This document shows, piece after piece, positions 25,771 to 52,218 of a stretch of 64,000 bases of DNA. A program made the position numbers and the translations under genes. The notes under the pieces were generated by a model. That model searched no databases. It was not told the DNA's origin and saw only the letters and a list, made by a program, of their open reading frames with translations. Within the stretch, counting starts at the first letter, position 1, and each line of letters opens with the position of its first letter. This DNA is from Streptomyces sp. Tue6028 (GTDB lineage Bacteria > Actinomycetota > Actinomycetes > Streptomycetales > Streptomycetaceae), in NCBI RefSeq assembly GCF_002300165.1, contig NZ_MLCE01000009.1:62001-126000 (forward strand), given 5' to 3'.

Positions 25771-27354
25771 TCACACCGCCCACGGCCAGTCGGCGTCCCG
25801 GGTGCTCTCCAGCAGCGGCACCATCCGGAAGGCCGCGTCCGACAGGCCTCCGAAGGTGTGCCGGCCGGGGCGCCCGGAGGGGCCGTGACCCGGCCGGTAT
25901 CCGGCGAGGTTCCAGGTGTAGACCGGCACGTCCGCGGGGACCTGCTCGGTCGGGTCGCCACAGTGGCTGTACGCGGCCTGCTCGTCGGTGACGATCAGGA
26001 CCCGGTCGTGCTTCTTGTAGTGCTTGCGCACCGCCTCGCTCGTCTCGGTGCCGCCGAGGCTGCCGAAACGCTCCAGCACCTTGAGCACCGAGTCGCCCCT
26101 GCGGTACTTCACCCGGCTGCTCGTGGAGCCGAACTCGACCAGGTCCGCGTCGGCCGCCCGCAGCGCGAGCGCCGTGCCGAAGATCGCCGCCGCGTCGGCC
26201 CGGTTGAGCCGCGAGCGGTCGGACATCTGCGAGAAGAACATCGACCCCGAGCGGTCCACGAGCACCAGCGTCCGGCCCGGCAGCGCGGGCACGTTGGCCA
26301 GCGAGTGACCGAGCGCCCGCTCCAGCGGGTACGACCAGCGCAGCGAGGGCGCGTGCCGGTACGCGGCGAGGTAGCGGAACGGGAACTGCCGCGAACGCGC
26401 CACCTCCGCCGGGTCGCTGATCCGCGCGGCGACCTGCTCGGCCACCTCGTCGGACACTCCGGCCTCGTCGAAGTTGCGCAGGTTGCGCACCAGCGCCATC
26501 ACACCCATGGACGGGATCACGGCCTCCCAGGCCGCCTTGTCCATCGGCCCCTGGAGCCAGCCGGCCAGCGCCTCCCACGTGATGCCGGCGGCCGCGAGCC
26601 GCCCGGCGCCGTCGGGCGCCGTCACGACGGCACGCCGCTCGGCGGCGGGCAGCGCCATCAGCTCGCGGTGCGCGGTCAGCACACGGTCCGACGCGGGCGG
26701 CACCGCCGTGTCCGGGTTGTGCCGCCGGTCCAGCGCGTAGCGGAACAGCTCGCCCTGCCACGGCTTGTCCGGGTCCGGCGCCGCGTGCACCAGGTTGAGG
26801 ATGTCGCCGAAGCGGTAGCCCTTGGACGCCGTGTCGTACTTCAGCAGCGACTTGCCGCTGTAGAGACGGCGTACGGCGTCGGCGACACCGCGCTTCACGG
26901 GCTTCGGCACGTTGCGGCCGTAGGTGGCGGTCCAGTAGGCGAGCAGCTCGCCCGGCTCGTCCGGCCGGCGCAGCACGGAGGCCACGACCTGGCGGTTCGA
27001 GGGGCCGTCGATGGCGCCCGCGTCCAGCCGTGCCTTCACGTACTCGGCGGCGCCCACGATCGAGGCGGTCCGCAGGTTGCCCTCGCCGCGCAGCCAGCCG
27101 AGCAGACCGGCGGTCCACGCCGGGTCGGCGACCGCGAGGTCGCGGACGAGCGCGGCGAAGCGGTCGTCACGGTCGGCGCCGGTCTCGTAGAAGGTCTGCT
27201 GGGACACGAAGTTGGCGACGGAGAGCAAAAAGAGCTCGGAGCGCGCGTCACGCTCCTGGCCCCGCCCGCCCTCGTACGTGCGGAGCACGCGTCCTGTGGA
27301 CGTCACGCGGGAGGTGGGCCGCGCTCGGGCCGCCTTGGTGTTGAATCGCGCCAT
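25771..27354 (-). CDS. rsr: Ro60 orthologue Rsr (TROVE domain and vWA domain RNA-binding protein)
   Basis: The 527-residue protein has an N-terminal TROVE HEAT-repeat ring (about residues 15-345), which in Ro60 binds misfolded RNAs in its hole and Y RNA on its outside, and a C-terminal von Willebrand A domain. The metal-dependent adhesion site is intact: D367, S369 and S371 in VLVDRSGSM, a threonine in SLGGTETS and an aspartate in VTDEQA. In Deinococcus, Rsr works with Y RNA and PNPase in structured RNA decay and rRNA maturation under stress. Three Y-RNA-like genes lie directly upstream on the same strand. GGGGGAA lies ten bases before the ATG. RtcB/RtcA genes are not adjacent. Confidence 0.93.
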   Translation of the reverse strand: MARFNTKAARARPTSRVTSTGRVLRTYEGGRGQERDARSELFLLSVANFVSQQTFYETGADRDDRFAALVRDLAVADPAWTAGLLGWLRGEGNLRTASIVGAAEYVKARLDAGAIDGPSNRQVVASVLRRPDEPGELLAYWTATYGRNVPKPVKRGVADAVRRLYSGKSLLKYDTASKGYRFGDILNLVHAAPDPDKPWQGELFRYALDRRHNPDTAVPPASDRVLTAHRELMALPAAERRAVVTAPDGAGRLAAAGITWEALAGWLQGPMDKAAWEAVIPSMGVMALVRNLRNFDEAGVSDEVAEQVAARISDPAEVARSRQFPFRYLAAYRHAPSLRWSYPLERALGHSLANVPALPGRTLVLVDRSGSMFFSQMSDRSRLNRADAAAIFGTALALRAADADLVEFGSTSSRVKYRRGDSVLKVLERFGSLGGTETSEAVRKHYKKHDRVLIVTDEQAAYSHCGDPTEQVPADVPVYTWNLAGYRPGHGPSGRPGRHTFGGLSDAAFRMVPLLESTRDADWPWAV

Positions 27355-27419: not shown

Positions 27420-27565
27420 GGTGTCCGAGGTCGGGAATCGGCGACGGTACACACCGAACGCGTCTGCCATTTCCGCCACATCGACCCTGAGTCGATGACG
27501 GGATTCGAACCCGCACCCTTGGAGATTCGGTCCCAGAAGTATCCGTCGCCTGCGCACCGGGCACC
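27420..27565 (-). ncRNA. Y-RNA-like RNA 3 with tRNA-like (YrlA-type) module
   Basis: About 146 nt. The outer ends pair (27558-27565 with 27420-27427, one mismatch), followed by the shared motif GGUGCG-N2-GGC-N6-UACUUC starting at 27558 and an 8-bp inner helix (27543-27550 with 27440-27447). The distal part is a tRNA-like module in permuted order: T arm 27498-27514 (loop UUCGAAU), then a closed acceptor-like hairpin (27491-27496 with 27480-27485, 5-base loop), then a D arm at 27460-27477. The D arm has the GGCGGAAAUGGCAGACGC form of leucine tRNAs. There is no anticodon and no CCA end, matching the bacterial YrlA class known to accompany Ro60. End points are inferred from pairing. Confidence 0.87.
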
Positions 27566-27576
27566 CACCTTGTGCT

Positions 27577-27657
27577 GCGCCTCCCGAGATCAAGTCGGCG
27601 GCGGCTCTGGATTCTTTTGAGAGAAGAAGTAGCCGCAGCCCGCGCACCGGGAGGTGC
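27577..27657 (-). ncRNA. Y-RNA-like RNA 2, short form without tRNA module
   Basis: About 81 nt. Its ends pair over ten positions with one mismatch (27648-27657 with 27577-27586). The same GGUGCG-N2-GGC-N6-UACUUC motif begins at 27648 with identical spacing, and the inner helix GCGGCU/AGCCGC (27631-27636 with 27601-27606) is capped by a small UUCUU/AAGAA hairpin and a pyrimidine-rich loop. The 3' strand GACUUGAUCU resembles the conserved 3' strand of animal Y RNAs. The tRNA-like module of its neighbours is missing, so it may bind Rsr without the same partner. Confidence 0.8.
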
Positions 27658-27670
27658 ATGAAGTTGTGGT

Positions 27671-27807
27671 GTCCAGAGATCGAGGTCGGCGGAACCGACA
27701 AGGTGCTCTAACCCCTGAGCTACACCGGCGCGTTGTACCGGTGGCGGGACTCGAACCCGCGGCCGCCCCATTATGAGTGGAAGTAGGTCCTGCCTTCGCA
27801 CCTGGAC
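27671..27807 (-). ncRNA. Y-RNA-like RNA 1 with tRNA-like (YrlA-type) module
   Basis: About 137 nt. Ends pair as GUCCAG/CUGGAC (27802-27807 with 27671-27676). The shared motif GGUGCG-N2-GGC-N6-UACUUC starts at 27802, and an inner helix GGC-AGGACC pairs with GGUUCC-GCC apart from one mismatch. The distal module has a T arm at 27744-27760 (loop UUCGAGU), a closed acceptor-like hairpin CACCGG/CCGGUG (27738-27743 with 27723-27728, 9-base loop) and a D arm at 27704-27722 with the UAGCUCAGGGGUUAGAGCA form of ordinary tRNAs. No anticodon arm or CCA end exists. A -10-like TAAAGT ends seven bases before the predicted 5' end. Confidence 0.87.
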
Positions 27808-51381: not shown

Positions 51382-52218
51382 ATGCCCACACCCCCTCCGA
51401 CCGGCCCACTCGTCACTCGGGACACCCTCGCCGCGGACCTTCGCACGCTCGGGGTACGGCCCGCGGAGACACTTCTCGTGCACTCCTCGCTCAGCGCCCT
51501 CGGCTGGGTGAACGGAGGCCCAATCGCCGCCGTCCAGGCCCTGCTCGACACGCTCGGCCCCGACGGCACCCTGGTGGTCCCCACGCAGTCCGGTGACCTG
51601 TCCGACCCGGCGCTGTGGGGCAATCCGCCCGTGCCCGAGCAGTGGTGGGCGACCATCCGCGCCACCATGCCCGTGTACGACCCGCGGGTGACCCCCAGCC
51701 GGGGTGTCGGTGTGATCCCTGAGACCGTGCGCAACTGGCCGGGCGCCCTGCGCAGCGCGCACCCGGAGACCTCGTTCGCGGCGCTCGGTCCACGCGCCGC
51801 GGCGATCCTCGACGGCCACGCGCCCGACTGCCGGCTCGGCGAGCGGAGCCCGCTGGCCCGCCTGGAGGCCGACGGTGCCCGCGTCCTGCTGCTGGGGGCC
51901 GGCTACGACACCTGCACCAGCTTCCATCTGGCCGAGTACCGCATCGCGTCGCCCGTCGTCGACGTGGGGCGGCCGTCCCCGCAGGGCTGGCGGACCGTCC
52001 GTGAGGTGTCGATCACCTCGGACGGGTTCGACGCGCTCGGCTCCGACTACGAACGGGACCGCCCCGTCGTCCGGGGCACCGTGGGCGCCGCCGACGCCCG
52101 GCTCTTCCCGGTCGCCGACGCCGTGGCGTACGCGGAGCGCTGGCTGACACTGCACCGCCCACGCGAGCTCGCGGTCGATACGGCCCCCGGCGCCCCGGCA
52201 CCCCGACGACGTCCTTAG
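51382..52218 (+). CDS. Aminoglycoside 3-N-acetyltransferase family protein
   Basis: The 278-residue protein matches the AAC(3)/YokD acetyl-CoA-dependent family: LLVHSSLSALGWVNGG near the N-terminus, GTLVVPTQS, RSAHPETSFAALG and GAGYDTCTSFHLAEY. Family members acetylate aminoglycosides or other amines. In Streptomyces such chromosomal genes are common outside producers, so the substrate is open. Two palindromes upstream suggest regulation, possibly by a metal or redox sensor. Confidence 0.88.
   Translation: MPTPPPTGPLVTRDTLAADLRTLGVRPAETLLVHSSLSALGWVNGGPIAAVQALLDTLGPDGTLVVPTQSGDLSDPALWGNPPVPEQWWATIRATMPVYDPRVTPSRGVGVIPETVRNWPGALRSAHPETSFAALGPRAAAILDGHAPDCRLGERSPLARLEADGARVLLLGAGYDTCTSFHLAEYRIASPVVDVGRPSPQGWRTVREVSITSDGFDALGSDYERDRPVVRGTVGAADARLFPVADAVAYAERWLTLHRPRELAVDTAPGAPAPRRRP

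Follow-up and report, generated by a model that had tools for sequence, protein, structure and literature searches.

Organization of the rsr locus

The window, that is, the whole stretch of 64,000 nucleotides of Streptomyces sp. Tue6028 that was analyzed, carries on its minus strand a gene for a TROVE-domain protein, rsr, preceded upstream by three Y RNA units named Y1, Y2 and Y3:

25771..27354, minus strand: rsr, TROVE-domain (Ro60-like) protein of 527 amino acids (PF05731; start codon common to relatives)
27425..27558, minus strand: Y3, rsr-proximal Y RNA with a permuted tRNA-Leu-like domain (orthologous place in 79 Streptomyces loci)
27580..27656, minus strand: Y2, short Y RNA lacking both T and D arms (fold z -2.56)
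27681..27802, minus strand: Y1, Y RNA whose permuted tRNA domain is complete (sequence comparison)

The match of the rsr product to PF05731 reaches 53 bits, the cut-off being 23, and the gene starts about 70 nt downstream of Y3, an adjacency to a TROVE gene found in 79 relatives too. The comparison set consisted of the window and the 80 nearest rsr relatives, all from Streptomyces. The Streptomyces genomes G018, G261, G182, G310, G324 and G333 each have a further rsr paralogue, which is more distant (62-72% identity). A pattern search of the locus for promoters and terminators found none. Elsewhere in the window ARAGORN reported a 94-nt tRNA-Ala(ggc) at 52033-52126 (minus strand), which is probably a false positive, since a genome-wide search for tRNAs with Rfam did not report it.

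Architecture of Y3

The elements of Y3, all on the minus strand, are listed in the order in which they are read from its 5' side, except that each basal or anticodon-stem-like strand is given next to its partner:

27536..27550, minus strand: basal helix, 5' strand, presumed Rsr-binding (GGCGACGGAUACUUC; kept in both classes of relatives)
27438..27448, minus strand: basal helix, 3' strand, presumed Rsr-binding (ACCGUCGCCGA; kept in both classes)
27526..27530, minus strand: equivalent of tRNA positions 39-43 (CCGAA), paired with 27454-27458
27454..27458, minus strand: equivalent of tRNA positions 27-31 (UUCGG)
27515..27525, minus strand: variable region of 11 nt (UCUCCAAGGGU), weak in the window, a clear hairpin in many relatives
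27498..27514, minus strand: T arm, GCGGG-UUCGAAU-CCCGU (5/5 pairs in every parsed relative)
27479..27497, minus strand: closed acceptor-like hairpin, CAUCGAC-UCAGG-GUCGAUG, 7 bp and a 5-nt loop (compensatory pair types at 2-71, 5-68 and 6-67)
27460..27476, minus strand: D arm of tRNA-Leu type, GCG-GAAAUGGCAGA-CGC (tRNA comparison)

In tRNA terms, Y3 runs through the T arm, the 3' strand of the acceptor, a short loop, the 5' strand of the acceptor and the D arm, with residues U8 and G9 lying between the acceptor hairpin and the D arm. The predicted structure is an exact circular permutation, in which a tRNA is opened in the anticodon loop and closed at the acceptor end. The initial annotation had already described the order T arm (27498-27514), closed acceptor-like hairpin and D arm, lacking CCA, and this order was confirmed on the minus strand, where a free acceptor end is absent too. 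Its details required some correction. The acceptor helix, given there as 6 bp, has 7 bp and pairs 27491-27497 with 27479-27485 around the loop 27486-27490; the D arm spans 27460-27476 instead of 27460-27477 and consists of 3 bp plus a G13.A22 mismatch. The statement that an anticodon arm is absent holds for the anticodon loop and fails for the stem, as a 5-bp helix like that of the anticodon stem is formed by 27454-27458 and 27526-27530, with 4 to 5 of its 5 pairs in almost all relatives. ARAGORN found no tRNA at Y3, where the anticodon loop and a free acceptor end with CCA are absent. The strands UACUUC and CCGUCGCCGA of the basal helix are conserved in both the Leu-type and the type I classes of Y3 described below, and the variable region of the window can form a 3-bp hairpin at best.

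Folding of the single Y3 sequence gave a structure no better than those of its shuffles (z 0.85), and that of Y1 likewise showed no significance against shuffles, while the fold of Y2 was significant. No element of the array matched an Rfam family at the gathering cut-off; in a laxer search the YrlA family RF02553 scored 32.9 bits at Y1 and 19.1 bits at Y3, the curated cut-off being 69. Because of this fold z value and the Rfam scores below cut-off, the case for the Y3 structure is made by comparison and not by folding energy. Y3 is therefore called YrlA-like and not a member of the Rfam family: it has the structural features, with a score below the cut-off, and this cut-off belongs to the model and not to the biological definition of YrlA.

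Conservation and covariation of the permuted modules

From the 80 Streptomyces rsr loci and the window, 78 Y3 and 55 Y1 modules could be parsed and counted. Nearly all of them have 5/5 pairs in the T stem and 7/7 in the acceptor, and U8-A14 is kept in every counted module. The tertiary pair 15-48 is G-C in 55/55 of the Y1 modules; in Y3 it is A-U (74 modules) or G-C (2) and is broken in one. In an alignment of 27 diverse modules of the Y1 type, 97.8% of the cells are paired, compared with 81.8% in shuffles, and 15 pairs are changed on both sides, compared with 7.8 in shuffles; here the tertiary pair 15-48 switches from C-G to U-A. Poor conservation of the two arms among relatives would speak against the proposed mimicry, and the opposite was found, both arms being kept as structures across the 78 Y3 and 55 Y1 modules. 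A purpose-written scanner located 240 permuted modules in 150 rsr loci; run on the reversed sequences of these loci (894 kb), it gave no hit.

Resemblance of Y3 to leucine tRNAs

The comparison of Y3 with tRNAs of its own genome covered 61 distinct sequences. The D arm of Y3, assigned from the start to the type II leucine tRNA form, proved to be identical at 19/20 positions to that of tRNA-Leu(GAG), the best match, followed by tRNA-Leu(CAG) (18 on the scoring scale, the best non-leucine tRNA reaching 14). When D arm, T arm and variable region were taken together, the four best matches were all tRNA-Leu, and the D arm was nearest to tRNA-Leu in 47/47 of the Leu-type Y RNA modules found.

The class of the D arm in Y3 is not fixed among relatives: the body has a leucine D arm in 36 and a type I D arm (UAGCUCA..GGUAGAGCA) in 43, a count in which four rows were assigned by hand. 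The variable region follows the D arm to a large extent. Most Leu-type Y3 have a region of the form U-hairpin-GU of 11-18 nt, as in tRNA-Leu, and those of type I have 5-6 nt, apart from a few rows that were parsed longer when a chance 5-bp stem won over the true 4-bp stem. The long variable arm is clear in about 25 of the 36 Leu-type Y3, a variable loop of type I length being present in about 11. In 11 ungapped Leu-type rows five of five variable-arm pairs show compensatory changes; this ungapped subset (A3) was used since the automatic alignment (A2) had shifted the variable arm. So the Leu-type Y RNAs with a long covarying variable arm copy a type II tRNA.

The T arm and the acceptor hairpin occur alike in alleles of the Leu type and of type I, without being leucine-specific, hence Y3 is a chimera and not the copy of one tRNA. 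Mimicry of a particular tRNA class, as had been proposed in the initial annotation, is thus supported by the D arm, the variable region and the repeated alternation with type I, but does not extend to the whole module. The leucine resemblance of Y3 is real, and it looks new.

No single isotype is claimed for the type I Y3, whose matches are mostly ambiguous (Asn, His, Arg). The type I bodies of four loci (L066, L141, L178 and L191) are clearly like tRNA-Arg(ACG), including part of the anticodon loop, and were possibly acquired by recent gene conversion from a tRNA gene. In the rsr-proximal Y RNA of locus L090 the stretch of acceptor and D arm occurs in several tandem repeats (GAUGUGUCAGAAUUC-like units), which are followed by an intact Leu-type D arm. 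Among more distant actinobacteria there are D arms resembling those of tRNA-Glu and tRNA-Gln.

Exchange of Y3 bodies

Mapped on the rsr tree, the state of Y3, Leu-type or type I, requires at least 18 changes, and mapped on the tree of the upstream gene it requires 19; with shuffled class labels 26 changes were obtained on average and at least 21. The sister loci L120 and L131, of type I and Leu type, respectively, have 98% identity in rsr and 100% in Y1 but 71% in Y3, and most of the differences between their Y3 fall inside the tRNA-like body, which UACUUC and CCGUCGCCGA delimit. Conversely, the Y3 of L120 is 94% identical to that of L085, the rsr genes of the two loci being 85% identical. Among pairs of loci with rsr 85-89% identical, Y1 averages 92% identity and Y3 67%. 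The best reading of these patterns is that the Y3 body recombines between strains as a cassette, during which the basal helix, Y1 and rsr would stay in place.

Anticodon-like arms of Y1 and Y2

The corresponding elements of the other two Y RNAs are the following:

27766..27782, minus strand: Y1 anticodon-like arm, 5 bp (two of them G-U), loop CUCAUAA as in tRNA-Met(CAU) (tRNA comparison)
27705..27760, minus strand: Y1 T arm, closed acceptor hairpin and D arm (comparison)
27612..27628, minus strand: Y2 terminal hairpin UUCUU-CUCUCAA-AAGAA, with the anticodon loop of tRNA-Glu(CUC) of this genome

On the 5' side of its T arm, Y1 contains UUCCA-CUCAUAA-UGGGG-CGGCC, which comprises a stem of 5 bp, its loop of 7 nt and a variable loop of 5 nt. 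The loop and the variable loop are identical to those of a CAU tRNA of the same genome, a tRNA-Met by ARAGORN. The stem covaries among relatives (UUCGA/UCGGG, UUCCG/CGGGG, UCGCU/AGCGA and others); in its common form the two outer pairs, both of them G-U, may be weak. As predicted from these comparisons, Y1 is a complete permuted tRNA with its ends between positions 26 and 27.

Among the distinct Y1 loops, 12/22 are equal to a tRNA loop of this genome, and these cover most of the 114 modules. On the rsr tree of 57 loci, positions 32, 33, 36 and 38 of the loop never change, and positions 34, 35 and 37 change 14, 8 and 6 times, respectively. Diversifying selection on the anticodon letters of Y1 was not seen, positions 34 and 35 changing about as often as other unpaired sites. 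The presence in Y1 of the determinants of t6A37 (U36, A37 and A38) was suggestive, but this candidate was rejected, position 37 being C in the loop CUCAUCA (8/114 modules).

The loop of the Y2 terminal hairpin has 7 nt in 72/108 distinct sequences. Of the distinct 7-nt loops, 11/33 coincide in full with the anticodon loop of one of the tRNAs of this genome (Glu CUC and UUC, Gly UCC, Cys GCA, Trp CCA, Thr UGU and CGU, Ser GCU and CGA, Leu CAG and Gln CUG), where column shuffles gave 3.0 matches on average, with a maximum of 10 in 20000. Both Y1 and Y2 present what characterizes an anticodon arm, namely a covarying 5-bp stem and a 7-nt loop with U33. The tRNA-like loops of these two RNAs, such as those of Glu(CUC) and CAU, reach wider than the finding on Y3.

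Relatives in phages

Phages of Streptomyces, Gordonia and Arthrobacter have Ro-like genes that in several cases (L268-L271 and L273) are located in or beside tRNA arrays, and in phage Kela an RNA ligase is next to the Ro-like gene. The same permuted modules accompany these phage genes. The annotated tRNA-Ser(gct) of phage LuckySocke (L268 2274-2347) and tRNA-Arg(tct) of phage VanLee (L274 2204-2275) each correspond to the anticodon, T and acceptor parts of a permuted Y RNA; what was taken for the D arm holds the UACUUC motif, the real D arm being located downstream. As parsed here, the two are parts of Y RNAs and not tRNAs.

Relation to known RNAs

The circular permutation between YrlA and tRNA has already been published (PMC11472068). 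YrlA (Rfam RF02553; Salmonella structure 6CU1) shares with Y3 the TROVE neighbour, a basal helix with conserved strands, the permuted tRNA and the closed acceptor (PMC11472068, PMC8394870). Unlike YrlA, Y3 has a Leu-type D arm, a long variable arm in most of its Leu-type relatives and an exchange of classes, and Y1 and Y2 carry an anticodon-like arm, which the Rfam consensus of RF02553 lacks. For YrlA, modification by DusA and TruB and a function together with PNPase in the RYPER complex are reported (PMC8394870); because of that report on DusA and TruB, the action of tRNA-modifying enzymes on Y RNAs is not a new idea. Neither the leucine class nor the anticodon arms are mentioned in the portions of the literature compared, a set that stands apart from the primary Y RNA papers.

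With type II tRNA-Leu, Y3 has in common a D arm with the G13.A22 mismatch, A15-U48, U44 and the GU before the T stem, and most Leu-type Y3 relatives have its long variable arm as well; unlike tRNA-Leu, Y3 is permuted, has no anticodon loop or CCA, and its T arm and acceptor are not those of tRNA-Leu. Like Y3, the tRNA-like domain of tmRNA imitates a tRNA with something else in place of its lower half, but it is not permuted in this way, and its Rfam matches were below threshold and covered T arms only. In the permuted tRNA genes of some algae and archaea the 3' half precedes the 5' half, and working tRNAs are produced from them. The tRNA-like part of Y3, in contrast, sits in a Y RNA and has a short closing loop.

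Possible roles of the tRNA-like bodies

The explanation that best accommodates the observations as a whole, and towards which we lean with reserve, is that Y3, a Y RNA of the YrlA kind with an exchangeable tRNA body, would serve for the class-specific docking of proteins that act on tRNAs. The ring protein Rsr would hold the Y RNA by its basal helix, and the permuted domain would fold into the L-shaped elbow of a tRNA, as the 15-48, 8-14 and GG/UUC features suggest. Proteins that recognize tRNAs, such as modification or processing enzymes or nucleases, could dock on this elbow. The long variable arm and the anticodon loop would set which of them do so, and recombination would change the choice.

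The leading rival, unlikely in our estimation and compatible with much of the same evidence, is that the array acts as a decoy or bait, offering several tRNA identities to tRNA-cleaving toxins or defence nucleases and so sparing or sensing the real tRNAs; class and anticodon would then change because the attackers change. The loops of Y1 and Y2, which agree with anticodon loops of actual tRNAs and are variable at positions 34-36, would be expected from such a role, as would the exchange of the Y3 cassette and the presence of actinophage Ro genes, together with permuted modules of this kind, in or beside tRNA arrays, in one case adjacent to an RNA ligase. Phage tRNAs are thought to resist anticodon nucleases (PMC10264068), and Salmonella YrlA is proposed to be a competitive inhibitor of an anticodon nuclease, but is itself not cleaved (PMC7790460). 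Moreover, no nuclease is linked to the locus here, and the rates at positions 34 and 35 of Y1 are no higher than those of other unpaired sites.

Less probable still is a neutral scaffold, in which only the basal helix and a generic elbow matter and the bodies and loop letters are interchangeable relics, swapped by ordinary homologous recombination. The occurrence of both Y3 classes in close relatives with no other visible change would fit, and so would the T arm and acceptor common to both classes and the loss of the long variable arm in some Leu-type forms. However, this arm covaries where it is present, which implies that it is maintained, and the loops keep U33 and coincide with complete tRNA loops at a higher frequency than loops of shuffled letters; it is because of this constraint on the variable arm and the loops that the neutral view loses weight. 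That Y3 is a permuted gene processed into a working tRNA-Leu, as in some algae and archaea, is very improbable: the permutation is exact, but Y3 has neither anticodon loop nor CCA, the acceptor loop has only 5 nt, the T arm is not that of tRNA-Leu, and the genome has ordinary tRNA-Leu genes. Chance resemblance or an annotation artefact, which the Rfam scores below cut-off and the insignificant single fold of Y3 might suggest, is ruled out for practical purposes by the scanner control (0 against 240) and the strong covariation.

A broader and more speculative reading, which we put forward as doubtful but possible, is that the rsr-linked Y RNA arrays of Actinobacteria and phages would be sets of tRNA-identity mimics, the cassettes of which are swapped in the course of a conflict with enzymes acting on particular tRNAs by cleavage or modification. 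Such sets might comprise complete permuted tRNAs (Met, Ile, Lys, Asn, Glu and Gln types), lone anticodon arms (Glu, Gly, Cys, Trp, His and Pro types) and type II tRNA-Leu bodies.

The data on Y3 bear on the purpose of the tRNA-like domain in bacterial Y RNAs. If Y RNAs copy particular tRNAs, including the long variable arm of tRNA-Leu and actual anticodon loops, and related strains swap the copies, the partner probably distinguishes tRNA identities, and, were this true, the search for it would narrow to enzymes acting on specific tRNAs. The copying of tRNA identity also predicts specific modified bases in the Y RNAs, and the loci L120/L131 and L085/L128 constitute natural swap pairs. Finally, some of the 'tRNAs' annotated in phages turn out to be Y RNAs.
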